A stretch of DNA of 64,000 bases. It comes from Platanthera guangdongensis (Eukaryota > Streptophyta > Magnoliopsida > Asparagales > Orchidaceae). Positions 1 through 50,281 of the stretch are shown piece by piece. Both the position numbers and the translations under genes were made by a program. The notes beneath the pieces were generated by a model that was not told the origin of the DNA, searched no databases, and worked only from the letters and a program-made list of their open reading frames with translations. The DNA is taken from assembly GCA_039583875.1 (NCBI GenBank), contig CM077153.1:117486568-117550567 (forward strand), read 5' to 3'. The first letter of the stretch is position 1. Every line of letters begins with the position of its first letter.

Positions 1-624
1 CCTTGTGTCGACACTTTCTTCAAGTGTTGAGTCTTCAGCTGTGTGTCGACACATTGTTCTGGGTGTCGACACATACTTCAAATGTTGACTCTTTTGTTGA
101 GTGTCGACACATTGTGTTGAGTGTCGACACTTACTTCAGGTGCTGACTCTTCTGCATAGTGTCGACACATTGTGTTGAGTGTCGACACTTGTACTTAGAC
201 TCTGCAGACTTTTGCTGAGTGTCGACACAGCTCCAACTATCGACACTTTCTGCTGTAGACACAGCTTCACTGGGTATCGACACACCTCCTTATGTCGACA
301 CTTTCTGTCTGCACTTTTCTTCACTAAGTGTCGACACAGCTCCAAGTGTCGACACTTTCTGTCTTGTGTCGACTCTGCATCCCAGGTGTCGACACAATGA
401 CTCCAAGTGTCGACACTGCTTGTCTGGATGTCGACACAAGTCTTCTTAAGTGTCGACACTTTCCCTCTGGGTGTCGACACATGGACTTAGAAACTTTTTG
501 CTTTAGTCAGTGATTTCTTAACCTGCACAAGTAAACTCAACATAAATCAAATACATTATGATGTATATCATTGAGTTGGGTGAGGCTTCTTCAAATCAGG
601 TACATTTGACCAATGTACCCAACA
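1..624 (-). repeat. Copia-1 3' LTR, partial
   Basis: The stretch matches 11058-11681 almost base for base and ends at ACCCAACA, the complement of the LTR start TGTTGGGT. Bases 1 to about 482 are filled with copies of the palindrome GTGTCGACAC and its variants. The rest of the LTR lies before the window. Variants against the other LTR are mostly transitions, several inside the palindrome, as expected of CpG decay. Confidence 0.93.
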
Positions 625-911: not shown

Positions 912-3767
912 TCAATTCCTAATATATTTCTGATCTGGTTCTTTGATAACAATGCCTTTGCCTGATTGGACTTGAGCTTTGACAGTGGCTTCAGCAGTTG
1001 CAGCATCAGCAGGCTTCTTGCCTTTTAAGTCCTTCTTCTTCAGCTCTTCTGCTTTGATTTTCTGCCTTTCAAAATAGTGGTATGGCTTGGGGAAGTACTT
1101 GCTAGGCTCCACTGCAGTAGGAGGTAGCTTTCACATCTTTGCCTTTCTTCTATATTGAACAATGGCCTCCTGTCTTATTTCATGTTTCCTCCATTCTGCT
1201 TCAGAGAACCACTTGTTCCTTTCATGAGCATTGTCCTTGGCAGCTTTCCAGGCAGTTAGAATTATATTCCTAGAGGTAGGGCTCCACTGTTCAAAATCTG
1301 GCTTTTGTTCTGCTTGTTCCCTAAACCTCTTCTTTGACAGCCTTGTCTCTTCTTCTTTCTCTAATGCCTCTTGCATAGCTGCAGAAATAGGTTCAACAAC
1401 CTTTTCCAGAACAACATTTGACTTCCCTGCAGTTGGGCTATACATCTGGTGAATATCAGCTTGCACCATGTCAAAATCTGGTGGAGGATATATGACCTGA
1501 GCTACCTCTGGTTGCTCACCTCCAAGATATGCACTTTGAATCCCAGATTCAGCAACATTATCATCATCACAGAGTGGAGGATAGCCCAGTGTAGCTCTGA
1601 TGGAGTTAGATATCCATTTGGCATGGTCAGAGCTAGCTTTGACTAAAACTCTCTCCCCCTTTATGACTTCTTGGGCAACATGATCTCTTACATCATCCTT
1701 TTGAAATCTAATCTGACTATCCAAGTACCTGATTCCCTCTTTAAAGTAAGGTCTGAGCTTAGTGAGCTGTTCAGAGATGGCCTTCTGGGAATCTTGAATT
1801 GCAGTCTTGACAGCAGTAATCTCAGCTTGAAATACTTTATCAAAGTCAGCCTTAACTGCAGCAGCAGATGTAGAAGGTTCAGCAGTCTTATTTTTCAATT
1901 CAGTGACTATAGCATTGTGTGAAGCAGTCAAGTTGTCATTCATCCTTAACTGATTTTCCAGTACATACCCTTGCTTCAATGCTATATCATCTACTTGGGC
2001 TTTGATCTTCTCTTGGTGTGTAGCCAGATACACCACTGCATTGCCACCCTTGTGGAAGCAGTCTGTCATCTCTTTCTTGTTGAGATTCATCTCAAACCTT
2101 ATAGATTTTATATCTTGGGCAAGATCAAACTGTAATGATCTGTGCCCTGCATCAACATAAGCCTCTATGGCTTTCCTTTGTTCATCCATTTTTATCTGCA
2201 GTGCAATCAGTAAAGCACTATAGTCAACAGTTGGAGCTTGTTGGACTATAGGCTGTGGGGCAATGGATTGCAAAGCCTTCTTGTAACTCTGGCTTCTTCT
2301 TTTAAAAACATATAATTTCTTCCTTTTAGCCTTTGCAGCCTCATCTTCTTCAGATTCTGAAGTGCTGGCTATTTCAACCCTTTCCTTAGGGCTTGGAGGT
2401 TTGTCAGCTTGCATAGCAGTTGCCTTTTCAGTTTCTTGCCTAATAGGCTCTTCCAGAACTTCCATGTGCTCCCCCTCAGCAGCAGCACTCTTATCTTTAG
2501 CAGCAGCATCCTTGTCCATATCAAAATCTTCTTGATCTAAATTTAGGAATAGATCTTCCATTGTAAACTCTTGAGGTGAAGAAGCTGGAGAAGTTCTTTG
2601 TTCTTCAACTACTTGATCAGGAACCACTTCTAGTACAACAGATGTGTCTTGGATAACAACATCTGGTTCTTGACTGTCTAGCTGAGTTTGCTGATGTACA
2701 TCAGACAAATCAGAATCTACTATAGAAAAATTCAATGTATTTAGTTCAATGAGTACCTCTTGGATGATGTTAGTGGCTTGCTCACTGTCCAGAGTAGAGG
2801 GTTCTTCTACTACTGGAGGCTCCCCCTGGCTTTGATCCCTGTGGATGAGGCTAGCCTGTGGCAGCTCCCCCTGGATCTCAGCTACATCTTGATCAGCAGG
2901 GGTCTTCTCTGCAGCCACTTCCTCTTGGTCATCAGGAGTGAAAACAACTTATTCTTCACTCCCTGAATTGCTGGAGGACTCATGTGTCACAGGAGCTGTC
3001 TTCCTTTTTTTCTTAGGAGGAATCTCCTTCTCAGTAACTGGCTTCTCTGGGGTTGTCACTTCCTTGGACAACACCCTGTCCCATCTGGAAAATATCCGTT
3101 GATCCATCTTCCTCATGTGGTTGATCTTGCTTCCAGCAGCATTGCTCATTACCTCTGGTATTGTACCAGCTAGGTAGAGACTTATAATTCTGCCCAGATT
3201 GGGCTTCTTCAAGCTCTCCTTGATCTTGTCAAAAACCACTATTGACCAGTCTGTTTTCAGAGTGAATATGATTCTAGTCATAATTCCAAACATAGAGGCT
3301 GACACCCTGTCATGCCGTCCAGGCTTACTGAGAATAACCTTGCCCACAATCTCAGACATGAATTTTCCTTGACTGTTCATGCCTTTCCTGTTAAAGACAG
3401 ATCCTATCTTCATCTTTGGATCAAGTCCACACCAGGTAAGGGCTTCCCTGGTCTTGGATGCAGTTACTTCTTCTTCATCTTGTGTTTTAGGTAGCTGGAG
3501 TACCTTCCTCAGACTTTTTGGTGAAATCTTGACTTTAGATCCATGAACTCTAGATTTGATTCTATATCCAGAGTCATCTACAGCAGCTCCATTAAGGAAT
3601 TCAAGAACTTCCTTCTTCCAAAACTTTGTTGGTTCTGAAACCAAGTATTCTAGTCCAGAATTGGCGACTAGGGTTACCACCGACTTGATTTCTTGATCAG
3701 CTTCATCGAACGCGCCGCGCACTAGCTCATAGCCCTCGTTAACGTTCTCCTCAAGCTTAGGAGCCAT
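912..3767 (-). pseudogene. Copia-1 ORF3: accessory protein with putative plant transposon domain, two in-frame stops
   Basis: Three open segments (2949-3767, 1131-2918, 912-1112) lie in one frame and together make a 951-codon gene broken by TAA at 2949-2951 and TGA at 1131-1133. I start it at the ATG at 3767-3765, because upstream codons only translate the GTGTCGACAC repeats. The first 200 residues resemble the start of Copia-3 ORF3, with shared elements such as F-x-x-(D/E)-(I/V)-V-G-K-V-(I/L)-L and, later, a lone tryptophan in K/R-W-D-R. They look like the domain annotated in many plants as putative plant transposon protein. The middle is acidic and Glu/Ser-rich, followed by a long charged, probably coiled-coil segment and a Lys-rich tail. 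No protease, polymerase or clear membrane segment is seen. Its position matches the envelope-like ORF of SIRE elements, but an envelope role is not supported by the sequence. Confidence 0.8.
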
Positions 3768-3800
3768 TAGGGTTTGGAGAATTAGTTTTGAGAAAAGAGA

Positions 3801-4250
3801 GGTGTCGACACAGGAGTTTTGGTCTCGAAACTTTGAAAGCGTGTCGACAAACAAAGATAGAACCCTATTTATACCTTTCTGATTTTGAAGATGAACAGGC
3901 GGGACAGCTAGCTTAACATGTGTCGACACTGGCAATAAGTGTCGACACTGACTTATAATGTCTCGACACATATGTGTCGACACAAGTTTAGTCAACAGAT
4001 TTTATGTGTCGACACTTGGTTATGTATCGACACAACATAACTCGACACATTGTCGAGACTTTACTTAGAAAAATTCTGAGTAAAACTTAAGTGTCGACAC
4101 CACATAGGATGTGTCGACACCTACTTGACATGTGTCGACACTAACATTCTGAAGTGTCGACACCACATTCCTAGATGTGTCGACACCTTTTTCCTGAAGT
4201 GTCGACACCACTATTTTGTGTCGACATAGACTTGTCTATGTGTCGACACC
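3801..4250 (-). promoter_or_regulatory. Promoter-like spacer upstream of Copia-1 ORF3: TGTCGACA array plus TATA box
   Basis: Fourteen exact TGTCGACA copies, mostly within GTGTCGACAC, lie between the pol stop and ORF3. None was seen by eye in gag or pol. A TATAAATA box on the minus strand sits at 3873-3866, 99 bases before the ORF3 ATG; twelve palindrome copies are upstream of it and two downstream. The 5' LTR has the same order: palindrome array, then TATAAATA at 10475-10468. I infer an internal promoter built like the LTR promoter. Expression is not shown by the sequence. Confidence 0.6.
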
Positions 4251-4281
4251 TTTTTACTTAGTCATTTTCAAATCTGTAAAC

Positions 4282-7200
4282 TTACTCTAAGTTTATCATT
4301 CCTAGTTCAATTTTGAATCTATTGAACTTAGCTTCTTCTAGTGGCTTAGTAAACATATCAGCTACTTGTTCATCTATTTTAACATATTCAAGTGAAATAT
4401 CTTCTCTTTCTACATGTTCTCTAAGAAAGTGATATTTAATCTCAATATGTTTTGTTCTACTATGAGATACAGGATTATTAGCTATTGAAATAGCACTTGT
4501 AGAATCACAGTAAAGTGGAGTTCTACTTACCTGAAATCCATAGTCCTCTAGCTGATGTTGAATCCACAGAAGTTGAGCACAGCAACTTCCTGCAGCCACA
4601 TACTCTGACTCAGCTGTGGAGATAGCCACACTAGTCTGCTTTTTGCTGCTCCATGAAATTAGTCTCCCACCTAGGAATTGATAGGTTCCAGTAGTACTCT
4701 TTCTATCCTCTTTGCATCCTGCAAAGTCTGCATCTGAATAACCTGTTAGATCAAAGTCTCCATTCCTAGGGTCCCAGAGGCCTAGATAGGGAGTGCCCTT
4801 TAGATATCTCAAAATTCTCTTGAATGCAGTCAAGTGAGATTCTTTAGGGCAGGCTTGATACCTTGCACAAACACATGTAGCATACATGATGTCTGGTCTA
4901 CTAGCAGTCAAGTATAGTAGGGAGCCAACTATCCCTCTATACAAGGTTTCATCTACAGGTTTCCCTGCATCATCCTTGCTAAGAGACATACTTGACCCCA
5001 TAGGAGTCTTCATGGTACTGGATGAATCCATACCATACTTCCTTATGAGTTCTAGGGTGAACTTTGACTGACAAATGGACAAACCACTCTCAGTCTGTTT
5101 AACTTGGAGACCCAAGAAAAACTTCAGCTCTCCCATACTACTCATTTCAAACTGACCTTGCATAAGTTTTGCAAACTTTTTGCAAAGGCTGCTTTCAGTA
5201 GACCCAAATATAATGTCATCTACATATATTTGGACTAGTATGACTTTGCCTCTTGATTCCCTAAGGAATAGAGTCTTATCTATTTTCCCCCTTGAGAATT
5301 TGTTCTCAATGAGGAAACTAGATAGGGTTTCATACCAAGCCCTAGGGGCTTGCTTTAACCCATATAAAGCTTTCCTAAGCCTATAGACATAATGAGGTAG
5401 AGTTGGATCAACAAAACCTGAAGGCTGCTCCACATAGACTTCTTCTTTAAGATTACCATTTAAGAATGCTGACTTGACATCCATCTGGTAAACCTTGAAT
5501 CCTTGATAGGTTGCATAGGCCAAGAACATCCTTATGGCTTCCAGTCTGGCTACTGGAGCAAAGGTTTGATCAAAGTCAATACCTTCTTCTTGCCTATATC
5601 CTTTAGCAACCAGTCTAGCTTTATTCTTAATGATGACCCCTTGTTCATCCATCTTATTCCTGTAGATCCACTTAACTCCTATTACATTGTGATCTTTAGG
5701 TTTAGGAACCAATTCCCAGACCTTGCACCTCTTGAACTGATTAAGCTCTTCTTGCATTGCTTCAGTCCATTGTGGATCTTGTATTGCTTCTTCAAATTTC
5801 TTATGTTTAACTTGTGACAGAAAGCTGGAATAGATTGCAGCATCCTGATTTCTGCTCCTAGTTTGAACTCCTTGTCTTGGATCTCCAATAATCAGCTCTA
5901 CTGGATGATCTCTAAGATGCCTGTGGGCTGGAGGCATCCTCACTTCAGGTTGAACCACTTCAGCATCTGCATCATGCTGTATTCCTTGGATTTCTTCAGC
6001 AACTGGCACATGTAGTTCTCCCCCTGGACAGCAGCTACTCTCCTCTCCTTGCTGTCTTGCAGCAGGCACCTCTTCTATAGTAAGCTTGTCCATTGTCTTT
6101 GTCAAACCTGTGGGGCTGCATACATTGCTAGACAACTCATTATTAATAAGTTTAGTCTCATCAAAAACTACATGCACTGATTCTTCTACAACTTGTGTAG
6201 TCAAGTTGTACACTCTATAAGCCTTACTATTATTGTTGTACCCAACAAAAATTCCCTCTTGGGACTTGGCAACAAACTTAGTTAAGTAAGACTTCCCATT
6301 GTTAAGTATGAAGCATTTGCAACCGAAGATCCTGAAGTAGGATAGGTTTGGTTTCCTGCCTTTCACAACTTCATAGGGGGTCTTGTTTAGCCCTTTAGTG
6401 ATGGTAGCCCTATTTATAACATGGCATGCAGTGTTAACTGCTTCAGCCCAGAAATACTCTGGCAGTGATGTATCACTCAATAGGGTTCTACCAGCCTCTA
6501 TCAAGGTCCTATTTTTCCTCTCAGCAATGCCATTTTGCTGAGGTGTTCTAGGTGAAGAGAATTCTTGAAATATCCCAAAGTCTTCACATAGTTTTGTCAT
6601 GCTTTCAGACTGAAACTCAGTACCATGGTCACTTCTAATTTTGACCACAGTACTATTTAGTTCATTCTGAATTTGCTTGACAAAGCTGTAGAAGACACTA
6701 GGTGTTTCAGATTTCTGTCTTAAGAAGAACACCCAGGAAAACCTTGAGTAGTCATCTACAACTACAAGGGTATAGACCTTTCTACCTAAGCTGTGAACTG
6801 GCATTGGACCAAAGAGATCCAAATGCAAGAGGTACAAACACCTCACAGCATCTTTGTTTTCTATGCTTTTAAAGGTGTATTTAGTCTGCTTGCCCTTTTG
6901 ACAAGCTGAGCAAATACCATCTTTGACACACTTAACTTGAGCACCATTCCTCACTAACTCTTTGCTAAAGAGTTTGCTAATAGTCTTGTAGTTAAGATGG
7001 GCTAGCCTCTTGTGCCATTTGACACAATGAGAGACTGTCTCATCAGCTACAAGACAAACTGGAGAACCATTGTTCTCAATCATAATGTCTAGGCAGTAGA
7101 CATTCCTCTTCCTATAACCTGTCAAAATGATCTCTTGATCTCTTGACCTCTTGATATGACAACCATTTTTAACAAATGAGATGTCATACCCTACATCACT

Positions 7201-7449
7201 TAATTGACTTATACTTATTAGGTTGTGTTTCAACCCTTTAACATAAGCCACTTGAGTAATGGTAACTAAGTTTGAAGAAATGTTACCAAACCCTTTGATG
7301 ATTCCTTTTTCAGAACCACCAAAGGTCACTTTAGGACCATTTTTGATTGGAATGTAGTCCTTCAGTAGTCCCCTAGTTCCAGTCATATATCTGGAACATC
7401 CACTGTCCAAGTACCATGTAGGGGTATGGCCACTTGGACTCACCTGCAA
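4282..7449 (-). CDS. pol: Copia-1 Pol: protease, integrase, reverse transcriptase, RNase H (intact)
   Basis: The frame of 1055 codons is open throughout and in Ty1/copia order. The aspartic protease motif is [10 protein letters not shown] near residue 15. The GAG-pre-integrase zinc site has the H-x3-H ... C-x2-C pattern ending CSACQKGK. The integrase core has its D, D and E in [15 protein letters not shown] and NGIAERKNR. The reverse transcriptase carries [10 protein letters not shown] and the catalytic YVDD. RNase H spans from SDADFAG to the C-terminal VADMFTKPL. The reading frame is the same as gag, with a single TAA (7458-7456) between them. The apparent start codon is not ATG, so Pol is presumably made by readthrough or splicing from gag rather than initiated here. 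It acts in virus-like particles in the cytoplasm and, for integration, in the nucleus. Confidence 0.93.
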
Positions 7450-7458
7450 AACAAATTA
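7443..7458 (-). other. Gag/pol junction: in-frame TAA followed by splice-acceptor-like site
   Basis: On the minus strand the gag stop TAA sits inside TTAATTTGTTTTGCAG, which reads as a branch-like TTAAT, a pyrimidine tract and AG, cut before GTG at 7443. Copia-2 has a closely similar stretch at the same junction (30000-30016) although the surrounding coding sequence has diverged. This could be a 3' splice site; the alternative is simple stop readthrough. No convincing in-phase donor was found in Copia-1. Confidence 0.4.
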
Positions 7459-9497
7459 ATGAACCTTAGAACCCAAAGTATTCTTGGGTCCTTGGTGATT
7501 GTTAGTTTGCAATTTGACAAACCTACCTACTGGCTTTCCAACAGGTAGTTTGGAACTCACTTTGGCACTCACATTGTGCCAACAGTATACTGCAAAATGG
7601 CCAACTTTGCCACAGCACCAACATTCAAATTTATTGTACCTTTGCTTAGGTACTGCCTTGGCTGTCTTGACTATAGCAGGCTTGTTGAATGTTGGGGCTT
7701 TGCCCTTGGACTTATACTTGGACTGCTCAGTCCCTGCAGGTCTAATAAAGCCCAGTCCAGCTTTACCCTTGTGATGAACAAATTCATCAATTATGGGTAA
7801 CACTGACTTAGGTTTAGAAAACCTAGCAACCAAGTCCTTCTCCTTCTGAAGATTGTTCTCCAGACACTTAATTTGATCATTCTTAAAAGTGATAGTTCCC
7901 ATCTGAATCACAGTAATGTGTTTCAGCCTGGCTACCTCATTTAGTTTTTGATCAAATTGCTTCTCAAAATCTGTTGCAGCAGCTTTAAGATCAGCAATTT
8001 CCTTTGCCTGACTTTTGGCTAGGGTCTTGCTTTTCTTGTAGGCTTGCAACAGTACCTTATATTCATCTATAAGCTGATGAATATCTTCCTCAGACTCAGA
8101 TATATTCTCATCACTTGATGAAGAAGAATCTGATTCTGAACTAGAACAAGAAACTGAATTTAAACTTGAACTTTGTACCTGACTGGGTCCTGGCTGCTCC
8201 AGGATTTTGGCACTGTCTGTCAAAGCCATTAGTCCTTGGCAATGACTGTCTTCTTGTTCATAAATTGACTCCAAGATCTGCATGAATTCTTCCTCTTCTT
8301 TTTCAGCAAACAGCCCTATGTAGGCTTCAGCCTCAGACTCAGTTTCTGAAGAAGAGATATCTGATAGAGTCTTCTCCTTCTTAGCAACAAAAGACTTTTC
8401 TTTCTTCCCTTTGAAGTGAGTCTTTTTCCTGTCACCAGATTCCTTTCTCTTCTCTGGATAATCTGCAATAACATGGCCCTGTCTATTGCAGCAATAGCAA
8501 ACAATCTTTGAACCAGTTGCCTTGTTTGATTTTGTCCTTTTTTGTCATTCTTTGAAGACCTCTTTTTCTGATAAGAGTCTTCCTTTCCTTGTGATGTAGA
8601 AGGCCTTGACCTCCACTGTTTCTTTTTCAAAAACTTCTGAAAGTGTCTAGTGAAAGCAGCAAAGTCTTCATCACTTTCACTGCTCTTAGACTTTGTGCTG
8701 ACAGACTCATCAGATTCTGATTCAACTACCTCTGGAGGTGGAGTTAAAGACTTATTCCTGCACTTTCTGGGAACTTCTGTCTTGAAAGCAACAGTTCTTT
8801 CTTTGTGCTCAGTCCTTGTTGATTTCTCCTCCTCTTTTCTCACTATTAACTGCATCTCATATGACAATAACTTGCCAAACAGTGTAGGAGGAGGAATTTC
8901 CACCAACTTAGCCATTTCTCTTATGGCACAGATCTTGGTGTCCCAATCTTTGGTTAGGGACCTTAGGAACTTGTCATTTAGTTCATAGTTACTGAACTCT
9001 CTTCCATAAGACATGAGTTCATTAACTATTCTGTAAAATTTCTTATAGCACTCAGTGATGCTATCACCCTTTCCTTGCCTAAAGCTTTCATACTCCTGAT
9101 TTAGCAAGGACTTCCTATCTTGCCTAACTTCTTCAGAACCTTCCATATAAACAATGAGAGTATCCCACATCTCTTTTGCTGTTTTACAGTGAATTAAGTT
9201 CTGAAAAGTTGTATCATCAATGGCACTCACTATTATGTTCTGTGCCCTCTTGTCCATGGTGGCCAGGACAATTTCATCCTTACTCATCTCAGAGAAATCC
9301 TTTGGAGTTCTCTGATTTGCATCTAGAACTGAAATCTTCATAGGCACATAAGGCCCTTCCTTTACTGTGATGTAGATTCTAGGGTCTGAGGCCTCCATAA
9401 ATAGCCTTACCCTTTCTTTCCAGATCCCAAAGTTCTCCTTCCTGCATATGGGTATTTTCATGGAACCCAATTCCTTGTGATTCTCATAAGACCCCAT
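7456..9497 (-). pseudogene. gag: Copia-1 Gag, frameshifted
   Basis: The segment 8316-9497 begins at an ATG (MGSYENHKELG) and has the retrotransposon Gag core, with W-K-E-R near the start, W-D-T-L in the middle and FLRSLTKDWDTK. The frame shifts at about 8545, after which the sequence continues in the frame of 7456-8283. The first zinc knuckle, just past the shift, reads C-x2-C-x4-H-x4-Y, so its last cysteine is lost. The second is intact as CWCCGKVGHFAVYC. Between them lies an acidic Ser/Asp/Glu stretch and a probable coiled coil. Gag would form the particle and package RNA. The shift sits in a run of As and Gs and is probably a one-base indel. Upstream, 9498-9596 is short leader. Confidence 0.88.
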
Positions 9498-9596
9498 GTT
9501 TCTTGATTTTCTTGAATTTCTTGAATCTGTGTTGTCCCTTACACTGAATCTGCCAAACAGGATCTCCTCAGACTGTTAGTCCTTGTTTTGAGGAAC

Positions 9597-9612: not shown

Positions 9613-9633
9613 TTGAAAGATATGGGACCTAAA

Positions 9634-9660
9634 CACCTAGAGGGGGGGGGTGAATAGGTG
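9634..9660 (-). other. C-tract hairpin near Copia-1 LTR 3' end
   Basis: CACCTA and TAGGTG pair across a loop containing nine consecutive C (minus strand). It lies about 20 bases before the LTR end. Equivalent hairpins with different stem bases are in Copia-2 and Copia-3. Confidence 0.6.
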
Positions 9661-10467
9661 ACCTAATCCTTTTCTAACTTTATTGGCAGCAATCAGTTAT
9701 ATCACAGCAATCTAACTAGTTTATCACAGCAAACACAGCATACACAGCAACAATTTCAGCACAGTACAGCACACAGTGATTTATAGTGGTTCCCCAAGAT
9801 ATGGGTACATCCACTTTCCCCCTTCGCCTATCTAGCAGTGTACTAGATTCGGCCAAACTCCTGCACTGTCTCAGAACCCAAATTGGTTCCTACACCTCAG
9901 GCCCAAAGCCTTACAACTCAGCTTTATCCCAAAGCCTACACTCAGCCAATCAAGGCCTACACTCAGAGATCTCTATCTCCTACACTCAGGCTAACAAGCC
10001 CTACCCTCAGCCTTTATAAATATAGGCTTACAATCACTCAGATACAATGGATCCTACAAGTTAAAAATGTAATACAAATAATATCTCTACAACTCAGAAT
10101 TAAAGGAGGGGAGTTGAGAGATTCTTGATGAGTTCTTGGAAGAACTCAGCTGGATTCACCCTGACTTAGCTTTCTTCAAAGCTTCTTGAGTGGAACTGAA
10201 TAAGACTGAATCCTCTGCAGTTGTTCCTTGACCTCTGCCACTTAAGATCCAGAATTGAATCTGAATCATTCTTCTCAGCCTAGTTCCAGAGGCTGATTTC
10301 TTGGATGGAGCCCTCTCTCTCCAACTTCTTAGATCTGCACTTTAACTGCTAGATCTTCTTGTGTTGATACTCTTTGTATTACTTCAATAATTACTTCAAC
10401 AACTCTTAACCACTTTCAACAACTTTTAAACTTCTTTCAACAACAGTTTCTGTAAACTGTAGGTGCC

Positions 10468-10475
10468 TATTTATA
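10468..10475 (-). promoter_or_regulatory. TATA box of the Copia-1 LTR
   Basis: TATAAATA on the minus strand, about 130 bases downstream of the palindrome array, is the best core-promoter candidate in this LTR. It is placed by motif only. Confidence 0.55.
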
Positions 10476-10607
10476 GGCCTTCTTCATGGTAACCGGCTGG
10501 TCCGGTCCATAACTGACTTCTGATATCTCTGACAGGTGCTGTAGACCGGCTGGAACGGCATCTGTCAAATCATCCAATCACTTCTTGAAAATCTCTAACT
10601 GTCTGTA

Positions 10608-11538
10608 AGTGTCGAGACTTTCTGTCTTTAAGTGTCGACACTTATAGTCCAAGTGTCGACACATGTTGTGTAAGTGTCGACACAAGTCTACAAGGTGTCG
10701 ACACAACTCCTTGTATGTCTCGACACAGATTCTTCTACATATGTCGACACTGAAATTGAGTGTCGACACAAGTACTTGTTCTTCTAGCTTTTGCTGAATT
10801 CTTCTATGTGTCGACACATCTCCTTTGTGTCGACACATCTTCTTGTGTTGAATCTGTCAAGTGTCGACACTGCTTCTTGGTGTCGACACATAGTCTTCTT
10901 TGTTGAATCTTGCTGAGTGTCGACACAGCTCCTTGTGTCGACACACCTTCTTGTTGTTGAGACTTCAGCTGAGTGTCGACACATTCCCTTAGTGTCGACA
11001 CTTGTACTTAGAATATTTTGTTGATAATTCTTTTCTTTGCTAAGTGTCGACACAGCTCCTTGTGTCAACACTTTCTTCAAGTGTTGAGTCTTCAGCTGTG
11101 TGTCGACACATTATTCTGGGTGTCGACACATACTTCAAATGTTGACTCTTCTGTTGAGTGTCGACACATTGTGTTGAGTGTCGACACTTACTTCAAGTGC
11201 TGACTCTTCTGCATAGTGTCGACACATTGTGTTGAGTGTCGACACTTGTACTTAGACTCTGCAGACTTTTGCTGAGTGTCGACACAGCTCCAACTGTCGA
11301 CACTTTCTGGTGTAGACACAGCTTCACTGGGTGTCGACACACCTCCTTGTGTCGACACTTTCTGTCTGCACTTTTCTTCACTGAGTGTCGACACAGCTCC
11401 AAGTGTCGACACTTTCTGTCTGGTGTCGACTCTGCATCCCAGGTGTCGACACAATGACTCCAAGTGTCGACACTGCTTGTCTGGATGTCGACACAAGTCT
11501 TCTTAAGTGTCGACACTTTCCCTCTGGGTGTCGATACA
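10608..11538. repeat. TGTCGACA palindrome array in the Copia-1 LTR
   Basis: I count 31 exact TGTCGACA copies, mostly as GTGTCGACAC, plus decayed variants such as GTGTCGAGAC, GTGTCAACAC and TGTCTCGACA. Spacing alternates between roughly 16-20 and longer intervals, with spacers such as AGCTCC recurring. The array lies in U3, upstream of the TATA box, where an enhancer is expected. Confidence 0.9.
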
Positions 11539-11681
11539 TGGACTTAGAAACTTTTTGCTTCAGTCAGTGATTTCTTAACCTGCACAAGTAAACTCAACAT
11601 ACATCAAATACATTATGATGTATATCATTAAGTTGGGTGAGGCTTCTTCAAATCAGGTACATTTGACCAATGTACCCAACA

Positions 11682-14242: not shown

Positions 14243-17200
14243 TGTAACATCTCATTTCCAACTAGACCCCTAAGAGTGGTTTTGGTCATGACTAGGTCAT
14301 GACAAAACCCTAAGAAGCCAGAAATGGGCCAAGAGATAGAAGGCCAAGGTGAGAATCACCATGGTCTGCCTATGGCACAACCTCATCACCCAACCTAGGG
14401 TTTGACCTTAGGGCTTCACCATGACTCCATGACCCCACCACAACATCACTAACCCATTAGAGGGTCCACTAGAGCCTTAAGGGTCCATTGGAGTCAACCA
14501 CAGGTGGCCAATTTGACCTAGGACCACCATAAGCCTAAATTGGGCAAGGTGCCATAACTAAGGGCAATGTGCCCTAGTAAAGCCCAACTAACCCTATCAG
14601 GGACTCCCTAGACCCAATGTGGGATCAATGGGTCACTAAGGACCTATGAAGGACAGTCAAAAGGGTTAAGTTGACCAAAGTCAACTCTAACCCTAAATGG
14701 GTCAAACTGACCTACTTAGGGTCAATTGACCATCCCCAAGCCAAGTGGACCCCACCCAAGCCCACCTAACCCTAGAGTGAGGTCAATGGGTCACCTAGGA
14801 CCCACTGGGGTCCACCCAAGATGCTAAGTTGACCAAAGTCAACTCTAACCCTAAATGGGTCAACCTAACCTACATTCGGTCAAACGGACATACACAAGGG
14901 CCAATTGAAGTTACCTTAGCCAAGTGGACCCCACACATACCCTCATAACCGTAGTGAGAGGCCAATGGGTCATCAAGGACCCATTGGGACCAATCAAAAA
15001 GGCTAAGTTGACCAAAGTCAACTCTAGCCCTAAAATGGTCAAGTGCCCTACCTAAGGGTCAAGTGACCTCCAAGGGGCCAAGACAACCCTACCTAGGCCT
15101 TAGGGGAGACCAATGGGTCACAAAGGACCCATTAGGGGCAAACTCAAAGACCAAATTGACCAAGTTCAACCCTAGCCTAGGTTTGGGTCAAGCTAGCCCA
15201 AATGGGCTAACTCAAGCTCATGCCCAATTCTCTTGGGCTAACCTTGCTTGGATGGGTGAAATAAACATGTGGTCTGCCTTAGGGTTAGGTAGGAGTCAAA
15301 AATTCAGATTGGTTAATGGGAGAGAGAAAGTGCTTCAAAGGGAAGAGAGAGAAAGAGAGAGAAGAAATGGAGGAAGACTTGGGCTCATCCTTCCCCTTGC
15401 CCAACCTTCCCCAACCTCCCATTCAATTCCCTAAGACCAGAGGAGTGCAACCAGCTACCCATTGACTGGCTGGAGCCAGCATTTCCCCCCTACCTACCAT
15501 GGCCGCCAAGCTTGACCAAGAGCCAATAATGGCAAATGCATTTCCAGCCACCTAACACCCCTTCTCTTCATTTTAAAAGCTTCACTGGACTCCAAGGAAT
15601 CAGTCCCACCCCTTACCCGAAGGAGCCAGAGCTGTTCACTGTGTTGTTGCAGAAATCCGACCACCACCACCACAAAAATGGCATCCCGGCAATCGGCAAG
15701 GATTCAGGCCACCAGAAAGGTCCTCCTCCACTCCTTCTCTCATGTATAGATCATAGCAATCAATAGGTCCAAGGTTCGGGCTCAATTGAGCCCGATCCAA
15801 TTCGGCATTTTCATGGATTTTCCAAAGAAATCCACTTGTCGGGTTCGCCGGAAAACGGCCCTCCGGCGGCCAAGCCGCCGCCTGGCGACGGCCACCACCT
15901 CAATGGAGGTGGTGGTGGCGGTGGCCGGCCGGGGAGGTGGCCGGATCGCCGGCGGTGGCGTTTGAAAATTGCTCCAGGTGGGACGAATCGCAGCCGTCGG
16001 CTGGAGCTTGAGGATGACCGGATCCCGTTAACCCTGCGCCAAGATTCGTGCAGATGGATGTATTAAACTATAGTATATGAAATGTGTGTTATTTAAATTC
16101 TGTCATACTTATGTCATTTAATGTTTTAAATATTTAAACATAGTTAGAGGCTCTGTATGAGGAAATGATCAACATAGGATTTGTATGCCATTGGGTCTAG
16201 TGTAGTTTAAAATTGGTTTGGACCAATTTGGGTGCCTGCTCTGACTAGGGCACCCATTTTTGTGGGGTCTACACATAGGGCTAGGCAGATATTCAATTGA
16301 GTGCCCACACTTTATCTTTGATCCAAATGAGCTGAAATTTTGGAAGGTAGTCAATCTAGACCATATCTAGGAGTAGACCAAAAATGGAAATTTTTGGGGA
16401 CAATGTTTCTATAGTTTTGTAAATTATTTAATTTATCTAGGGTAAATTAATTTAAGGGCCAAATGACCTCCAAACTCACCCAAATTTTGGTGAGTGGTGC
16501 TTGGGGTCATTATAGTGCTCTGGTTAAAATGTTATCACAATTGGATGTGTATTGGACTATAATCATGCAAATCCTAGCCTTGCCCTAAAAGGGTATTTTG
16601 GTCAAAAAGTGCACTTTGGTGTTTTGAGTGACCAAATCACCTCAACAGAGGCTGAAATTTGGGCCACTGACTTGGTATGGCACTTAGCACCTCCCCATGG
16701 AATGTGGGGTAGAGTGGAATTGATTTGCCCTAAGTTCCTAGGCCAAACCCTAAGGAAGGACCTTTGTGCCTTGTGAAGGGCATGAGTCCTAAACACCTTG
16801 GATGAACTTCAAATTTTGTATGGAGGGTCCTAGGGTATATAAAACCCTCTGGTAAAAATATTAAATAATTTTGAAAAGGGTAGGGTCCACAAAGCCCTAA
16901 CCCTTCTTAGGTCATAAAACTTGTGCTAGTTTAGGTTAGCTAAACTCCTTGAAATATAATCAAATTTGGGTAGTGTGGGAATAAGGATATTTTGAGCCTC
17001 TGGTAATTTATTTGGGAAGTTTTGATCAATATTTGTAGCACTTCATTTGTAACCAATAGGATTGCCATAATTAATAATTTGACTATTGTGATCTCACTGC
17101 CCATTGAAAGGTCATGAAAATTTGGCAGAGGTAGTTTTAGACCATATTGATCATATATGATTTTTAATAGAAGTTTTTGATACATAATTAGGGCATCTAC

Positions 17201-18851
17201 TTCACAAGTGCAATACTTTGGTTATATACTGAATAATTCTTACAAGAGCTCAATACTTGTTGCACAATTATGAAACCTTATACATAGTGTTCTTAGTTCA
17301 TCATTATCATGTGGGAATTTATTTAGAAATTTTGGATGGATAATTAGTATACTTTGTTCATTAACCCATAAACTTGGAATTTCATGAGAAAATCAAGTAT
17401 AGCCTTATTATTAAATGATAAATTATGAAACTTGATCTAGAGTATTTATATGCTATCCTAACCATCCTTGAATGTTCTCTGAATTTTTGGAGGTATTATT
17501 GCTGTAAATTTTTTTTAAAATGACTTATTATGAGATATATTTAAAATTAAAATTAAGGGCTTAAACCTTGCTGAAAAATTGGAAGACTTAGGATTTAGAT
17601 TTGATTATTCATTTTATAATTAACATAAATTTAGTGGATTATTATCTTGTCTGAAATTGGTACTTCATGTTCAAACTTGGGCCATTTGGATACTAGAATA
17701 AATAAATAAATTATCTGACAAATTAGGAAAATTATGAATTTCTAGATTTATGCTAAAAATGTAATTATAGCCCTCTAATAATTATCATAGGGGTACTGGA
17801 TGATTATTTGATGTACCTCCCATTTTACGAGTCATATAGCTTAAGTGGTCTGCATATAGTAAAAACTGCAGAAATCATGTTGGAGTATAATTAGGTGCAT
17901 GTCTTGGGATTAGTGGTATGCTGGTTTGGATGGATAAAAATAAGTTCATTATTGGTAGTAGGAGGAGTAGAGGGATGGATTGGCTAGAGTTAGACGGTGT
18001 CCGGGATCGACGAAAGATCGTCTTCCCCGAGGTGAGGTATAGTCAAATCACCCTAGGATTAGCCTATTGTAACACGAGAAGGTAATGGGTAAGGGAATCA
18101 ACTAATAATAATAATAAGCACCTTGTGAAAGGGAACGCTGGGCGTAATCCCAACATAGTTCCTAGTGCCCCTTGAGAGCCCTTCACAGGGAATACCGGGG
18201 GCAGTCCTGGGTTAACGTAAACTGTATTAACAAGCTGAAAAGAGTAACTTAGTAATTAGGGTTGCACATTTCAAGAACACAGAGAGCTCTGTAAGATATT
18301 TGGAAGCTTCGGCTTGGATGGTTAAGAGACGGACGTTTGGGTCCGGGGAGCTTCGGCTCGATTGTTTGAGACAGACATTTTGGTCCGGGGAGCTTCGGCT
18401 CGGTTTTTGGATACGTTAAATTTGCATGTGAATAAAAGGAAAGGAAATTAAGGTGGTGGGTCTTCGGTATTGGAGGGTCGATGCACCGACGCCAATACGC
18501 TGACTCGGGAAGGTGGTTAGCACTTCGCCAACAGAAGTCCGGTGCGCCAGCCGGCAAGAGTACGCAGGAGTCCGCTTCGTGCACCAAGCGTTGAGGCGTA
18601 CGATAGGTCTGACCGGTAGTGCTTTACTGGTTTAGAGGTGGGCGAGGCCCAACCCACCGCTTCCGTCTGCCACTACGGAGGTATCCTGGGAGGTTACGGC
18701 TCCAGAAAGGGGGAACTAAAGGTCTGTGTGCACAGAGTCGGGTGTGTGTGTTGCACTTGCCTGTTCCATCATACCCACTTGCATGTCATAGCATAATCGA
18801 TTCATTTAACCCTGACACCTAAAGTATAAGTGGAATGGGACGCTTATACAT
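14243..18851 (+). repeat. LTR-A: giant 3' LTR of Gypsy-A, 3' end truncated
   Basis: It begins TGTAACATCTCATTTCC after the Gypsy-A 3' UTR and is collinear with LTR-B (19062-24406) up to CGCTTATACAT at 18851. There LTR-B continues for about 800 bases and LTR-A stops. It contains about 165-bp subrepeats, a GC-rich block with CCGGCGGCC (15850-15965), a candidate TATA box TATATAAAA at about 16836, AT-rich sequence (17000-17900), and a repeated GGGAGCTTCGGCTCG motif (18340-18400). Short ORFs here are not conserved as proteins and I do not annotate them. LTRs near 5 kb are unusually long but known in plant gypsy elements. Confidence 0.87.
14628..15215 (+). repeat. Tandem subrepeats of about 165 bp with W-box dyads in LTR-A
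   Basis: Four diverged units each start near AATGGGTCAC...AAGGACC and contain TTGACC and GTCAA cores. Three have the dyad TTGACCAAAGTCAA (14671-14684, 14829-14842, 15008-15021). LTR-B lacks one unit and has the dyad at 19489-19502 and 19749-19762. TTGACC/T is the WRKY factor site. Regulation is inferred, not shown. Confidence 0.65.
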
Positions 18852-25626: not shown

Positions 25627-25991
25627 TGTAACAACCCAAATTTCAAAATGGGAAAATTTTGGGTGACACGGCCTGGGACACGGGCGTGTCCGGCTCGGAT
25701 GCGGAGACGTCGCGAGTTCGACGAAAATGCATTCGACGAAGTGTTCAGGAGGGACACGCCCTGTGACACGGGTGTGACCTACGGCGTGTCCTCCTTTGTG
25801 TCGACACTCCAGTCTTTGGTCGAGAGAGGTAACACGCATGTGACACGGGTGTACCTTCTAACACGGGCGTGTCGGAGGGCGTGTCCCCCCCCCCTCTAGT
25901 CGACAAATTCTGCTCGATGATCATTGAGTGAAGACACGCCCTGCGACACGAGCGTGTCTGGGCCGACACGGGCGTGTACCCTGGTCGTGAC
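25627..25991 (+). repeat. LTR-X left part: gypsy LTR rich in GACACG palindromes
   Basis: It begins TGTAACAACCC. Read on the plus strand it corresponds to the reverse complement of the Gypsy-4 LTR terminus (TTTGGGCTGTTACA), so it is a related family in the opposite orientation. It contains GACACGGGCGTGTC-type dyads and one GTGTCGACAC. The last five bases GTGAC (25987-25991) are the target duplication of Copia-2. The LTR resumes at 50282. Confidence 0.83.
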
Positions 25992-27573: not shown

Positions 27574-27603
27574 TCACCTATTCCCCCCCCCCCCCATAGG
27601 TGA
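27574..27603 (+). other. C-tract hairpin near Copia-2 LTR 3' end
   Basis: TCACCTAT and ATAGGTGA form an eight-pair stem around a loop of T and 13 or so C. It is repeated in the 3' LTR at 50223-50249 with a shorter C run. It is equivalent to the hairpins in Copia-1 and Copia-3. Confidence 0.6.
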
Positions 27604-27632
27604 ACATAGTTGACACTAGGTGGACTTTCAAG

Positions 27633-32564: not shown

Positions 32565-32585
32565 TGAAAGGGGAAACTAGATCAG

Positions 32586-32618
32586 ATATACTCTAGAGGG
32601 GGGGTGAATAGAGTATAT
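32586..32618 (-). other. C-tract hairpin near Copia-3 LTR 3' end
   Basis: ATATACTCTA and TAGAGTATAT make a ten-pair stem around a loop with seven C. The loop bases TTCACCCCCCC are shared with Copia-1, while the stem sequence differs and still pairs. Confidence 0.65.
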
Positions 32619-33639
32619 GGTGCTTTTAAAACACAAAAAAAACTTTTGCAAAGCTTTACAACAATTGTTGTAATGAGTGTAAGCAGGGAAGCAGAGATAA
32701 AACTAATCACAAAACCAAGCTATGCAGAAACTAAGCACAAGAAAATCTAGGCCAGAAACAAAAAGAAAACATGCAAAACCAGATGACACAAGGAATTATA
32801 GTGGTTCCCCAAACTTGGGTACATCCACTCTTCTACCACCCTAGGTAGGAATCCACTGCAGGATGAGTTGATCAGGTGTCCTGGGCACCAATGAGCTTTT
32901 GATAAGGTGCTCAAAAACCAAATCAGATTTTTTGATCAGGTGTCTTGCCACCAATGAGCTTTTGACAAGGTGCTCAAAAACCAGATTCAAACTTTTGAAG
33001 GGATTTTGAAAAACCCTTTACAGAGTGGGGGTGAGAGAGTGATGGCAGTCTTCTCTTTCTCAATCAACTGAGAAGACTAAGTGGATTGATGTCAAAGCTC
33101 CCCCTGAATCCTTGAAATCTTCAGGAAGATGAGCTTTGTTGAGGGTGATAGGCCTTCAAAGATAGATCTCCAGCAGAAGATGATTTCAGCAAGCTGAAAT
33201 GTTGAGAGTCTGGAGTCTTGAAATGATGTTGGCCTTGAACACTTTGAGAGCTGAAGAAATCTGAAGATTTTTGAAAGCTTGATCTCTCTGATGAGTGTTC
33301 TTCAGAATTCTTGTTGACAGAATATTTTCAAAGAGTCTCTGTATACTGAGTTGTGTCCTATTCTTGTCAATCTCTCTTTTTTGTTCTTATCTATTCTATG
33401 TCTTGATTCAAAAGCATTCTGTCTTTTATTCTCTGTGTCTGAATAGAATATCACTCTGTCAAAGATAGCCGTTGGTCTACATTGATTACAGCCTTAATTG
33501 CATAATTTGTTCTGAAGGAAAGTCCACTGAATTGTTCCTAGAAAAATCCCTTGAAACTTGCTCCAGAAGTAAATGAAAACGGCTGGCAGATCTTCTGAAT
33601 TAAATGCAGAATAACTTCTGATAGATTTGAATTTGAATT

Positions 33640-33990
33640 CTGAAAGATAACTGAAATCGTCGAACTGAGCTCTGCTATCGTCGAGCTGAGCTCAGCGAAC
33701 TGGAAAATGCAAGCAGCAACATAATCGTCGATCTGAGCTCAAAGATCGTCGAACTGAGCTCAGAGATAAGGATCCAGTGCAGAGTCAAAATCGTCGACCT
33801 GAGCTCAGCGATCGTCGAATGGAGTTCGACGATATTGAGAAGTTGAGCTCAGCGATCGTCGAGTGGAGCTCGACGATATTATGAGGTTGAGCTCAGCGAT
33901 CGTCGAATGGAGCTCGACGATCTGTCGAAGTTGAGCTAGACGATCGTCGACCGGAGTTCGACGAATCATCGTGCTGAGCTCGACGATTGG
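33640..33990. repeat. Palindrome array of the Copia-3 LTR (ATCGTCGA ... TCGACGAT)
   Basis: Tandem dyads read ATCGTCGA, six or seven bases such as GTGGAGC or ATGGAGT, then TCGACGAT. GAGCTC often occupies the centre. Several variants read GAGCTCAGCGATCGTCGA. The same dyads lie upstream of ORF3 (37440-37610). Confidence 0.88.
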
Positions 33991-34153
33991 ACTTAGTCTC
34001 CAGAAAAACTTGGTCTTCAGGGCAGCTTCCAAACCTAGACTTCTAACCCTTAGACTCAATTCTAATTGACCTATTAAGCTATACAGAAGGTCAAACACAG
34101 ATTCCTAGAGACATAGTGATCCTGACCCAAATTAGTAATAGGGTGTTCCAACA

Positions 34154-34332: not shown

Positions 34333-37317
34333 TTACTTTTTCTCTTTGCTTTTTACCAACTTGATTTCTCTGTTAGGATTTAAAGCTTCTTGTTTGGATC
34401 TGGTATCATCAGCTGCTCCCAAATATGTTTGCTTTGATGTCCTGGGAACCACTGCAGCTGGATGCAACTCCATGTACCTGTCTGCATCAAAAAATTTACT
34501 GGAGGCATATCTTTCTAGTTCTTTCTGTCTTTGTTCTGACATTGTAGATATATTAGAGGTGTCTAGGCCTTGCTCTCTGGCTTTCTTTATCTGATCTAAA
34601 GCAGCCAACTCCTTCATTCTAGCAGTCCAAGCAACAGGATTCTTCTCAGGGTCCTCAAAAGGAACAGGTGGCTCATACCTGTTGGAAGAAGTATCTTGAG
34701 GAGTCCTGGCAGTCACAGTTTCTTTGAGCTTGTAGGGGAATGGACCAGAAGATGTATCAGAAGGAACATGTCCTCCCCTGGAATAAGGGTGCTGCCTGGA
34801 ATGCCCTTTAGAATATACCTGAGTCTCTCTTTGATTTCCCCTATATCCTCCCCTTCTAGAGTAAGAGCCCCTAGACTGGCTTTCCCTTTGATATGTTCTA
34901 GCATGGGGTTGGTAGGGAGCCTGGCTTCTAGCTGGGCCTGAACTTGCAGAGCTGCCACCTGCACCTGCATCAGGTGGAGGTGGTGGAGGAGGATGAGGGT
35001 GCTTGGACTGGGTGGAACCTTTCTCATACTTCCTTTTCTTCTTCATTGCCTTTAGCTGATTTTTAGAGAACTGCATCCAATGTTCAGTAATTGGGCAGTT
35101 ATGCAGAATATAGTAGGGAACATCATTGTCATCTCTAACTTTGGCAGGTGGAATCCTTTTCATTGCCTTACTTCTTGCCTTCCTTTTCCTTGCAATGGTG
35201 GCAGAAGAATCATCAGAATCTGTCTTGAATTCATCAGAGTCAGAACTCTGGGCATCATATATAGCATCAATCCTTTTCATCAAATCTTCTTTTAGTTGAA
35301 CAGCAGCAGATGGGGCAGAAGCAGAAGCAGAAGGAGCAACAGAGACAGATACAGCAGCAGATGTAACAACAGATACAGGAGCAGCAGTAGAAGCAACACT
35401 GGTTATTTCAGGAATTATGGCAGCAGCAGGTTCAGAAACAACAACAACATCTACAGCAGGCTCAAAAACAACAGCCTCTGTCATCAGAGAATCCTGGGAA
35501 ATGGGCTCATCAGAAACAATTTGATTTTCAGCAGCAGTTGGAACATTTTCTTCAGCAGCAGCAAGAACAATTTCAGAAGCAGATTCAGCCTTTTCTTTAT
35601 CAGCAGCAGCAGCAGTCATCACTGAGAGTACAAAGGATGAAAGAATGTTGGGGTCACAGCCAGAGAAGGGCACCATTGCCTTAGACAGATCTTCTGAGGG
35701 CTGGACAGCAATAGCTTCTGGAAGGTAGCTGTAATATGCAGTATCAAATGCAGATAGCAAAGACCTTAGGTCTATTGCTAAGACTAGAGTAGCAGCAGCA
35801 ACTGGAGCAGAAGAGGCAGCAGACACAGGTGCAGCAGCAGCAGCAGCAGCAGCATGAAGGTTGGCTTCATAGGGCATCTCCCCCTGCCTGGATGCAGATA
35901 CCTCTGTATCAAGGCAAACTGCTGGTGGGGCTGCTTGAGGAAGGAGAGAAGAAAGCCTGGCAGAGAGGGCTGCCACTGACAAGTGTAGAGGAGCTAAAGA
36001 GGTCTCCAAGAGAAGGGAGAGCCTGGGGGCAATGAGCTCATACAACTTGTCAGCAAGGGCTGAGAGATCTACTTGCTCAAGAAGAGGAGCAGAGGTAGAG
36101 GGTACAGGGATGGCTGAAGAAGCTGGAGGTGGAGGGCTGAATGGTGGAATGAATGGCTCAGGAGAGGGGATTGTGGAGATGGAGGACAAAGGGAGGGATA
36201 TGGAGGGAGTGAAAGTGGGTTGGTCAATGATGTGGTGGAGAAGGTCTTGGAAAGATGTTGAAGAGGATGGTAAGTCTGGAGGAGAGGAGGGGGAATCATC
36301 CATGTAGGATTCATCCAGAAGTGTGAAGGATGGTATGGATGGGGATGAGGTGACATCTGGTGGTGGATATGAGAATAATGGGTGGAATTGGTCTACTGGA
36401 GGTGATGAAATTATTGCTGGAGATGGAATAGATGTTGGAGATGGGCTGGAGATTGTAATGGTGGATGGAATATGTAGGGTTGGACTTGGAGGAGGAGGAG
36501 AAGCAGCACTAGCAGCAGGCAGGTCTTCTGCAGGAGCAGAGACCTGGGGGGGAGTGACTCTTTGAGTCCTGGTGCCTGAAGGGGCAGTTGAAGAGGGCCT
36601 GCTGGGCTTGCTAATTTGCCTGTCCCATTTCCCAAATAGGGCACAGGTGAGTCTCTTGGAGGCATTGATGTGCACTCCAGAGGAGACCAACAGAGCAGGG
36701 CACCTTGCCTGAAGGAAAACTCCCAGAATTCTTCCAAAATTCACAAAGGTTTTGTTAATCTTTTTCTTTATCAGGTCAAAGAAGACCTCTCCCCAGTTCA
36801 AGCTTTTCCTATCTATCAGAGCTCCCATAAGGCAGAGCTGATGTCTGGAGATGGTGTCATGTGCAGAATGCTTGGCCAACAGCACCTTGCCTACAACATC
36901 AGCTAGGAACCTATATTCAACTGACAAGTTCCTCTTAAACAACTTGCTAGGGTTTCCCTCAGGATGACCCATCCTGGCAAGTATATCAGAAAATTCCTCT
37001 CCAGATAGTTCAGCAGTGTCTTCACCATTTCTCAAGCCAAAAACCTCTGTTAAGACTGTTGGGGTCAGAGGTACCTGTGTTCCAGTAATAGATCCAACTA
37101 TGGTGTTGTTGTCAAGGTTGTGTGCAGTATACACCCATTCTTTGATTTCATCTGAGGCAAGTTTGATTCTTGTGGTCATGAGGGCAGACAAATGCTGATC
37201 TTTGAATAAACTCAGGATGTCCTGGAAGATTTGATCAGTGGTGTTGAAGGAGTCCAGATCAATGTCAAACCCTGCATCAAACTTCATTGCGGCGAGGACA
37301 GCGACTGAGGCGACCAT
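34333..37317 (-). CDS. Copia-3 ORF3: 994-residue accessory protein, fully open
   Basis: The ATG at 37317-37315 is about 115 bases after a TATAAAA on the same strand. Residues 1 to about 240 form the domain shared with Copia-1 ORF3 (putative plant transposon type), including FLADVVGKVLLAKH and FGKWDRQI. Residues 240-450 are Pro/Ser-rich low complexity. Residues 450-720 are Ala/Val-rich with acidic patches. A Lys-rich segment (RKRKARSKAMKR, a possible nuclear localisation signal), a His-Pro run and an Arg/Gly/Tyr-rich tract follow, and the C-terminus is charged. There is no signal peptide or clear membrane helix, which argues against an envelope. The function is unknown; a basic, disordered nuclear protein would fit RNA or DNA binding. 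The frame is intact although gag and pol are gone. Confidence 0.85.
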   Translation of the reverse strand: MVASVAVLAAMKFDAGFDIDLDSFNTTDQIFQDILSLFKDQHLSALMTTRIKLASDEIKEWVYTAHNLDNNTIVGSITGTQVPLTPTVLTEVFGLRNGEDTAELSGEEFSDILARMGHPEGNPSKLFKRNLSVEYRFLADVVGKVLLAKHSAHDTISRHQLCLMGALIDRKSLNWGEVFFDLIKKKINKTFVNFGRILGVFLQARCPALLVSSGVHINASKRLTCALFGKWDRQISKPSRPSSTAPSGTRTQRVTPPQVSAPAEDLPAASAASPPPPSPTLHIPSTITISSPSPTSIPSPAIISSPPVDQFHPLFSYPPPDVTSSPSIPSFTLLDESYMDDSPSSPPDLPSSSTSFQDLLHHIIDQPTFTPSISLPLSSISTIPSPEPFIPPFSPPPPASSAIPVPSTSAPLLEQVDLSALADKLYELIAPRLSLLLETSLAPLHLSVAALSARLSSLLPQAAPPAVCLDTEVSASRQGEMPYEANLHAAAAAAAAPVSAASSAPVAAATLVLAIDLRSLLSAFDTAYYSYLPEAIAVQPSEDLSKAMVPFSGCDPNILSSFVLSVMTAAAADKEKAESASEIVLAAAEENVPTAAENQIVSDEPISQDSLMTEAVVFEPAVDVVVVSEPAAAIIPEITSVASTAAPVSVVTSAAVSVSVAPSASASAPSAAVQLKEDLMKRIDAIYDAQSSDSDEFKTDSDDSSATIARKRKARSKAMKRIPPAKVRDDNDVPYYILHNCPITEHWMQFSKNQLKAMKKKRKYEKGSTQSKHPHPPPPPPPDAGAGGSSASSGPARSQAPYQPHARTYQRESQSRGSYSRRGGYRGNQRETQVYSKGHSRQHPYSRGGHVPSDTSSGPFPYKLKETVTARTPQDTSSNRYEPPVPFEDPEKNPVAWTARMKELAALDQIKKAREQGLDTSNISTMSEQRQKELERYASSKFFDADRYMELHPAAVVPRTSKQTYLGAADDTRSKQEALNPNREIKLVKSKEKK

Positions 37318-37430: not shown

Positions 37431-37610
37431 TTTTATATTAGGGTTCGACGCAGAAATGGAAAGATCGTTGAACTCAGTTCGACGATCTAGGCTTCTAAAG
37501 GAATCTGAAGAGACTCCAATATCGTCGATCTCCGTTCGACGATCTTGGAAGGCGTCGAGCTCCGTTCGACGATCGTTCAGGGAACAAAATCGTCGAGCGC
37601 CGTTCGACGA
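37431..37610 (-). promoter_or_regulatory. Promoter-like spacer upstream of Copia-3 ORF3
   Basis: Four to five dyads of the LTR type (for example ATCGTCGATCTCCGTTCGACGAT-like arms ATCGTCGA and TCGACGAT) precede a TATAAAA at 37437-37431 on the minus strand. The ORF3 ATG is about 115 bases further. This is the arrangement seen in Copia-1, but with a different palindrome. Confidence 0.58.
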
Positions 37611-37952
37611 TCGTCGAATGGAGTTCGACGATATTGAGAAGTTGAGCTCAGCGATCGTCGAGTGGAGCTCGACGATATTATGAGGTTGAGCTCAGCGATC
37701 GTCGAATGGAGCTCGACGATCTGTCGAAGTTGAGCTAGACGATCGTCGACCGGAGTTCGACGAATCGTCGTGCTGAGCTCGACGATTGGACTTAGTCTCC
37801 AGAAAATCTTGGTCTTCAGGGCAGCTTCCAAACCTAGACTTCTAACCCTTAGACTCAATTCTAATTGACCTATTAAGCTATACAGAAGGTCAAACACAGA
37901 TTCCTAGAGACATAGTGATCCTGACCCAAATTAGTAATAGGGTGTTCCAACA
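37608..37952 (-). repeat. Copia-3 5' LTR, truncated to its first 345 bp
   Basis: It matches 33809-34153 with about two differences. Homology fades inside a palindrome unit between 37585 and 37610, which marks the deletion junction. The rest of the LTR and the primer site are missing, so the element cannot start reverse transcription from this copy. Confidence 0.88.
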
Positions 37953-50276: not shown

Positions 50277-50281
50277 GTGAC

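Follow-up and report, generated by a model that had tools for sequence, protein, structure and literature searches.

Family-matched palindrome arrays in the long terminal repeat and ahead of ORF3 in Sirevirus-type Copia elements of Platanthera guangdongensis, and a probable internal promoter

Main finding

The 64,000-nucleotide stretch of the orchid Platanthera guangdongensis analysed here (assembly GCA_039583875.1, contig CM077153.1, positions 117,486,568 to 117,550,567; "the window") contains two Copia retrotransposons, Copia-1 and Copia-3, that carry the accessory Sirevirus gene ORF3 ('envelope-like'). A first-pass annotation had claimed that ORF3 has its own promoter with the same palindrome array as the long terminal repeat (LTR) of its element, and that the two are co-regulated; the observation is partly confirmed and the interpretation partly supported. 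Palindromes matching those of the element's own LTR precede ORF3 in several families of this genome, and in the arrays measured the palindromes keep their CpG dinucleotides while the spacers have lost most or all of theirs. ORF3 probably has a promoter of its own and probably encodes a factor like the VANC proteins of VANDAL transposons that acts on both the LTR and itself. The favoured reading, to which a probability of about one half is assigned, is that the N-terminal domain of ORF3 binds the LTR and pre-ORF3 arrays and keeps these promoters unmethylated or active, letting the element escape silencing.

Palindrome arrays of Copia-1 and Copia-3

All features given for these two elements lie on the reverse strand. 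The 5' LTR of Copia-1 (TGTTGGG...TTTCA, 9614..11681; ends judged by eye) adjoins the primer binding site (PBS; TATCAGAGCC, 9608-9599) and contains 31 exact copies of TGTCGACA at 10633..11515 and a TATA box, TATAAATA, at 10468..10475. The gag-pol region (4282..9575) has 1 CpG in 5294 bp and no exact TGTCGACA in an octamer count across the window, while the region before ORF3 has 14 exact copies (3803..4248) and the same TATA box at 3866..3873, 99 bases from the ORF3 ATG at 3767; the copy numbers, TATA boxes and distance given in the annotation were accurate. ORF3 itself (1131..3767), with a distantly PF20167-like N-terminal domain, has an in-frame TAA at 2949-2951 in this copy, was treated as two pieces and is followed by the polypurine tract (PPT; AGGGGGAGAT, 634-625) and the head of the 3' LTR (1..624), which is cut by the window edge and holds 16 exact copies at 6-479. 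These three arrays account for 61 of the 63 TGTCGACA copies in the window, with 2 elsewhere, compared with a mean of 0.69 and a maximum of 5 in the shuffled window. The mean gap between adjacent palindromes (gaps under 30 only) is 20.6 bp before ORF3 and 19.7 bp in the LTRs. Across the 4.25-Gb assembly, the pattern TGTCGACACN{8,14}GTGTCGACA, which is its own reverse complement and hence has an equal count on each strand, has 1,049,604 matches (reversed control, 3). Copia-1 also has the SIRE PBS TATCAGAGC and the polyC signal at the LTR end, the SIRE PPT AGGGGGAG adjoins AT/TG at the 3' LTR in both elements, and the PPT-LTR junction AGGGGGAGATTGTTGG occurs at 64,732 genome sites (control, 1).

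The annotation called the palindromes of Copia-3 unrelated to those of Copia-1, which does not wholly hold, as TG-TCGA-CA and ATCG-TCGA have TCGA in common. The TATAAAA of Copia-3 was found (37431..37437) upstream of the ATG at 37317 that opens the 994-amino-acid ORF3 frame (34333..37317), and the 3' LTR (32565..34153) has its array at ~33650-34000. Copia-3 has lost gag, pol and PBS, and its truncated 5' LTR (37585..37952; 97% identity to the head of the 3' LTR, from 34153 onward, in a 375-bp alignment) breaks off within the array and runs directly into the pre-ORF3 region, where a native array (ATCGTCGA...TCGACGAT) occupies ~37440..37584. The flanks (AAATA/AAATG, judged by eye) suggest an ordinary insertion that was deleted later. 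Most of the array before ORF3 in this copy thus matches the LTR because that part is LTR sequence, and the window Copia-3 is a partly confounded second case.

Five relatives (L041-L045) were found by protein search, and copies L039-L046 (n=8) were hand-picked from 142 and 150 scored matches. The relatives have a separate native array before ORF3 (L041, L042, L044 and L045 read directly), with 9, 3, 8, 6 and 4 copies of ATCGTCGA, respectively, counted in both orientations over the 1.4 kb that surround the start of ORF3. Their LTRs also hold the ATCGTCGA family motif, so the LTR and the pre-ORF3 region do match, with firmer support than the window by itself provides. The LTRs further hold 5, 3, 5, 4 and 6 copies of TGAGCTCA, an octamer that is not among the repeated octamers listed before ORF3 in these copies.

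Matches in further families

A census of 40 LTR heads, taken from the first 60 of 100 junctions listed among the 64,732 and all on contig C1 (1.8-21 Mb), found a CpG-bearing octamer at least four times in 39 of them (repeated octamers, both strands, counted without a shuffle control); L053 is the exception, and the motif of L048 seems to be part of a nested insertion. About 500 LTR bases of L062 read N in that copy. At least eight leading octamer types are present (TGTCGACA, ATCGTCGA, TCGACGAA, ACTCGAGT, CGAGAATC, ATAGTCGA, ACACGGGC and ACTCAACG). TCGA is absent from CGAGAATC, ACACGGGC and ACTCAACG, and the LTR motifs that match pre-ORF3 arrays share a TCGA core. Thirteen upstream stretches were picked for motif diversity, 12 of them from LTRs of different or rarer types. 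An ORF3 related to that of Copia-1 or Copia-3 was found by tblastn in eight (best E per stretch 3e-37 to 5e-92), with no ORF3 match in L068, L073, L096, L097 and L098.

Compared family by family, the LTR motif also occurs before ORF3 in the ATCGTCGA, TTCGTCGA and TACTCGAGTA families (copies elsewhere in this genome). The ACTCGAGT family has TACTCGAGTA-type repeats both before ORF3 (L070 and L095; spacing 20-23 bp, averaging 21.1 when a single gap of 45 is excluded) and in the LTR (L059 and L076; spacing 19-24 plus longer gaps). The CGAGAATC family matches only weakly: by eye, the pre-ORF3 region lacks its LTR dyad GCGAGAATCACTAGTGATTCTCGC and has instead a CCCGCCGA-type repeat that is rich in CpG and not palindromic. 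One element of this family (L073, with L063) has a pol that ends near the PPT and an LTR array without ORF3; possibly it uses the ORF3 of relatives in trans. In a matrix of LTR versus pre-ORF3 coverage for 11 elements, the diagonal sum was reached by 0 (k=8), 0 (k=7) and 1 (k=6) of 100,000 permutations, a test that counts related elements as independent. The own family scores best in 8, 8 and 6 of the 11 elements at k=8, 7 and 6; at k=8 it fails to rank first for L045 and L069, where the motifs of other families overlap with theirs, and for L067, which has an interrupted LTR, and L099 succeeds by a narrow margin (2.4 vs 2.3).

All eight copies resembling Copia-1 or Copia-3 have TATAAA before ORF3, 105-121 bp upstream of the ATG. 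Outside this group (L072 left out), L070 has TATAAA, with TATAAATA 161 bp upstream of its ATG, L095, L069 and L094 have TATA-like runs only, and no clear TATA was seen before ORF3 in L067, L071 and L099.

CpG partition and conservation

The coding parts of both elements are nearly free of CpG. The four CpGs in the 2985 bp of Copia-3 ORF3 all lie inside its first 30 bp, compared with observed/expected ratios of 0.52-0.91 in five other coding stretches of the window. Copia-3 ORF3 and Copia-1 pol use no NCG codons and no CGN arginine codons, and C-G across codon borders is likewise rare (4 vs 69.8 expected and 1 vs 53.5 expected, respectively). CAG/CTG stands at 1.6-2.3 of expectation in the CpG-poor parts (0.9-1.33 in the five other stretches), which indicates that the loss is limited to CG. 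Across ORF3 body and linker, the CpG ratio is 0.01-0.05 in nine copies of the Copia-1 and Copia-3 types, 0.11-0.15 in the TCGACGAA and ACTCGAGT families (four copies), and 0.48-0.53 in the CGAGAATC family (three copies).

Within the arrays, CpG is confined almost entirely to palindrome centres (54/54 in the LTR arrays of the window Copia-1 and 19/21 in its pre-ORF3 array), and all 35 CpGs of the 5' LTR array centre an octamer with at most one mismatch. Spacers have no CpG where 17-28 are expected in all eight Copia-1-like LTR arrays, 2 vs 8.4 expected in the Copia-1 pre-ORF3 array, and 1/3.1, 1/5.3, 0/8.3 and 1/7.0 (observed/expected) in ACTCGAGT arrays. The palindromes are also 5-6 times less diverged than the spacers, a comparison in which alignment of the LTR-array repeats may inflate spacer differences. 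Read from the CpG pattern and the conservation, the palindromes are kept by selection. The interval from the TATA box to 110 bp into ORF3 has CpG at the expected level in the three copies measured (Copia-1, 3656..3880: 11 CpGs outside palindromes vs 10.4 expected), and from this composition we read the promoter zone as kept free of CG methylation.

The ORF3 protein

PF20167 (Transposase_32) was the sole hmmscan match of the N-terminal domains of both ORF3 proteins at E up to 10, a search in which DUF1985 was not matched. The score is below the Pfam cut-off, and by sequence comparison the domain qualifies as a distant relative of PF20167. The predicted fold of a PF20167 relative has DNA-bound VANC21 as its top, weak-scoring PDB match, and ORF3 itself would probably share this fold. 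At 29 of 30 high-scoring PF20167 loci (1.5 kb on each side), no 8- or 10-base palindrome occurred in at least three copies; the exception, L027, has TGAGCTCA six times. In another element family (L009, 940-1015), a PF20167 open reading frame is closely preceded by a CpG peak and by repeats of the CGTCGACCGG kind, three in number. A genome search in which 12 candidates were scored gave one DUF1985 match at E up to 0.001 (L100, G000:C19:104524939-104525328), under the Pfam cut-off and also matching the plant mobile domain.

Favoured reading and alternatives

Under the favoured reading, ORF3 would have an internal promoter whose regulatory half is positions 3785-4260. Like the LTR promoter, this stretch bears TCGA-core palindromes particular to its family, and neighbouring ones are spaced by ~20-21 bp, or two helical turns. 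The N-terminal domain would bind the array in the LTR and the one ahead of its own gene and would keep both promoters unmethylated or active, so that ORF3 would feed back on itself and the element would escape silencing. According to the available excerpts of PMC10398659, VANC reduces both CG and non-CG methylation where its motif arrays lie, and in the coding regions around them the reduction is mainly of the non-CG kind. A long-term regime of this kind would see CG deaminated but CHG spared in the body and CG kept at promoters, and we infer that it could fit the composition seen.

In sunflower, SIRE interiors have low CG and high CHG methylation (PMC12844716, in the part available), which is no direct fit; the low CG level there may be partly due to few CG sites. 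A somewhat unlikely alternative is that the arrays are host transcription factor sites driving the LTR and ORF3 promoters, with ORF3 not the binder. It would account for arrays in LTRs without ORF3, such as those of L073/L063 and of the window Copia-2 (by eye, as the annotation had said) and, in the excerpts of PMC2829016, those of OPIE-2, PREM-2, Osr8 and Tnd-1, and palindrome symmetry with ~20-bp spacing suits many dimeric factors. However, the motifs differ sharply among families of one genome, which a single factor would not require, and the VANC-like fold predicted for a relative of the ORF3 domain also speaks against this alternative.

Less likely still is that splicing or stop-codon read-through yields ORF3 from the LTR transcript, with the pre-ORF3 array serving as an enhancer or silencing target rather than as a promoter. 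An acceptor-like TTGCAG-G follows a pyrimidine run just upstream of the ORF3 ATG in the window Copia-3 (near 37330), L041, L042, L045, L069 and L094 and is altered in L044 (L043 left out of the survey), and the available part of PMC2829016 cites both env-like RNAs produced by splicing and suppression of the SIRE1 stop. Against this, Copia-1 has no such sequence before its ORF3 ATG, the TATA distance is near-fixed in all eight Copia-1/Copia-3-like copies, and CpG reaches its expected level nowhere else than in the stretch around the TATA box and ORF3 start. Functionless tandem-repeat expansion, with recombination or template switching moving copies between the LTR and the linker, is highly improbable, for although 54-58 bp higher-order repeats exist inside LTR arrays, Copia-3 has a deletion whose join falls within the two arrays, and 13 of 216 spacer 8-mers are common to the Copia-1 arrays (null mean 3.2, maximum 15), the palindromes are far more conserved than the spacers despite mutable CpG, which they retain and the spacers have lost.

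Other elements in the window

A nested set occupies 25989-50279, where the LTRs of Copia-2 (25989-27634 and 48700-50279) surround another element with LTR parts at 31853-32564 plus 37954-39707 and at 44612-47073, the former LTR being split by the Copia-3 insertion (~32565-37952). A 4 kb direct repeat (14892-18851 and 19632-23599, 93% identical) is CpG-poor with CpG-rich islands and, unlike Copia-1 and Copia-3, is depleted in CAG/CTG too, a pattern that ordinary methylation decay would give.

Comparison with known systems

The basic architecture is already known. Bousios et al. 2010 (PMC2829016, in the excerpts available) described palindromic repeated motifs in the Sirevirus LTR upstream of TATA, with the same repeat before ENV. 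Such motifs were found in 13 elements, 9 of which have ENV plus copies before it, and were taken as support for an internal promoter, none having been conclusively identified. The orchid arrays are alike in their placement, but the published core is CGG-CCG (except in Tnd-1), whereas the matching orchid families have TCGA and no CGG-CCG core occurs in the Copia-1 or Copia-3 motifs. As far as seen, the TCGA-core families, the near-fixed TATA distance and CpG-purged body in Copia-1/Copia-3-like copies, the CpG partition, the conservation test and the VANC lead are new, and among the matches listed in the open-licence literature Sirevirus ORF3 was not joined with VANC. Neumann et al. 2019 (PMC6317226, in part) found that 74% of SIRE elements have extra 3' open reading frames, which fall into 19 groups that resemble one another little, and raised the question of whether these function at all. 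PF20167, to which the ORF3 domain is distantly related, is known from additional open reading frames, including one of Athila in sunflower (PMC11728184, in part).

A further close parallel is with VANC21 and VANC6, where an element-encoded protein likewise stands beside family-specific motif arrays in non-coding DNA (PMC5735166 and PMC10398659, in the excerpts available), and the predicted fold of the PF20167 relative resembles VANC21, with a weak score. The systems differ in that VANDALs are DNA transposons and the orchid elements LTR retrotransposons, in that the VANC motifs reported in these excerpts are not the orchid palindromes, and in that DUF1985 is not matched by ORF3. Taken together, and tentatively, at somewhat less than even odds, the Sirevirus 'envelope-like' gene might be a VANC-fold, sequence-specific anti-silencing factor rather than an envelope, part of an autoregulated loop in which each family has its own TCGA-palindrome lock, placed both on the LTR and on the promoter of the factor itself. 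The nearly CpG-free, CHG-intact body would then be its fossil trace, and extra open reading frames with PF20167, plant mobile domain or DUF1985 in Athila, Ogre and VANDAL would form one anti-silencing superfamily. With the array as candidate target, VANC21 as a lead to the fold and a purge limited to CG as compositional trace, the function of these SIRE reading frames becomes directly testable. If the reading is true, the LTR retrotransposons that make up most of many plant genomes bear their own sequence-specific escape from silencing, as demonstrated for the VANDAL DNA transposons (PMC5735166, PMC10398659).
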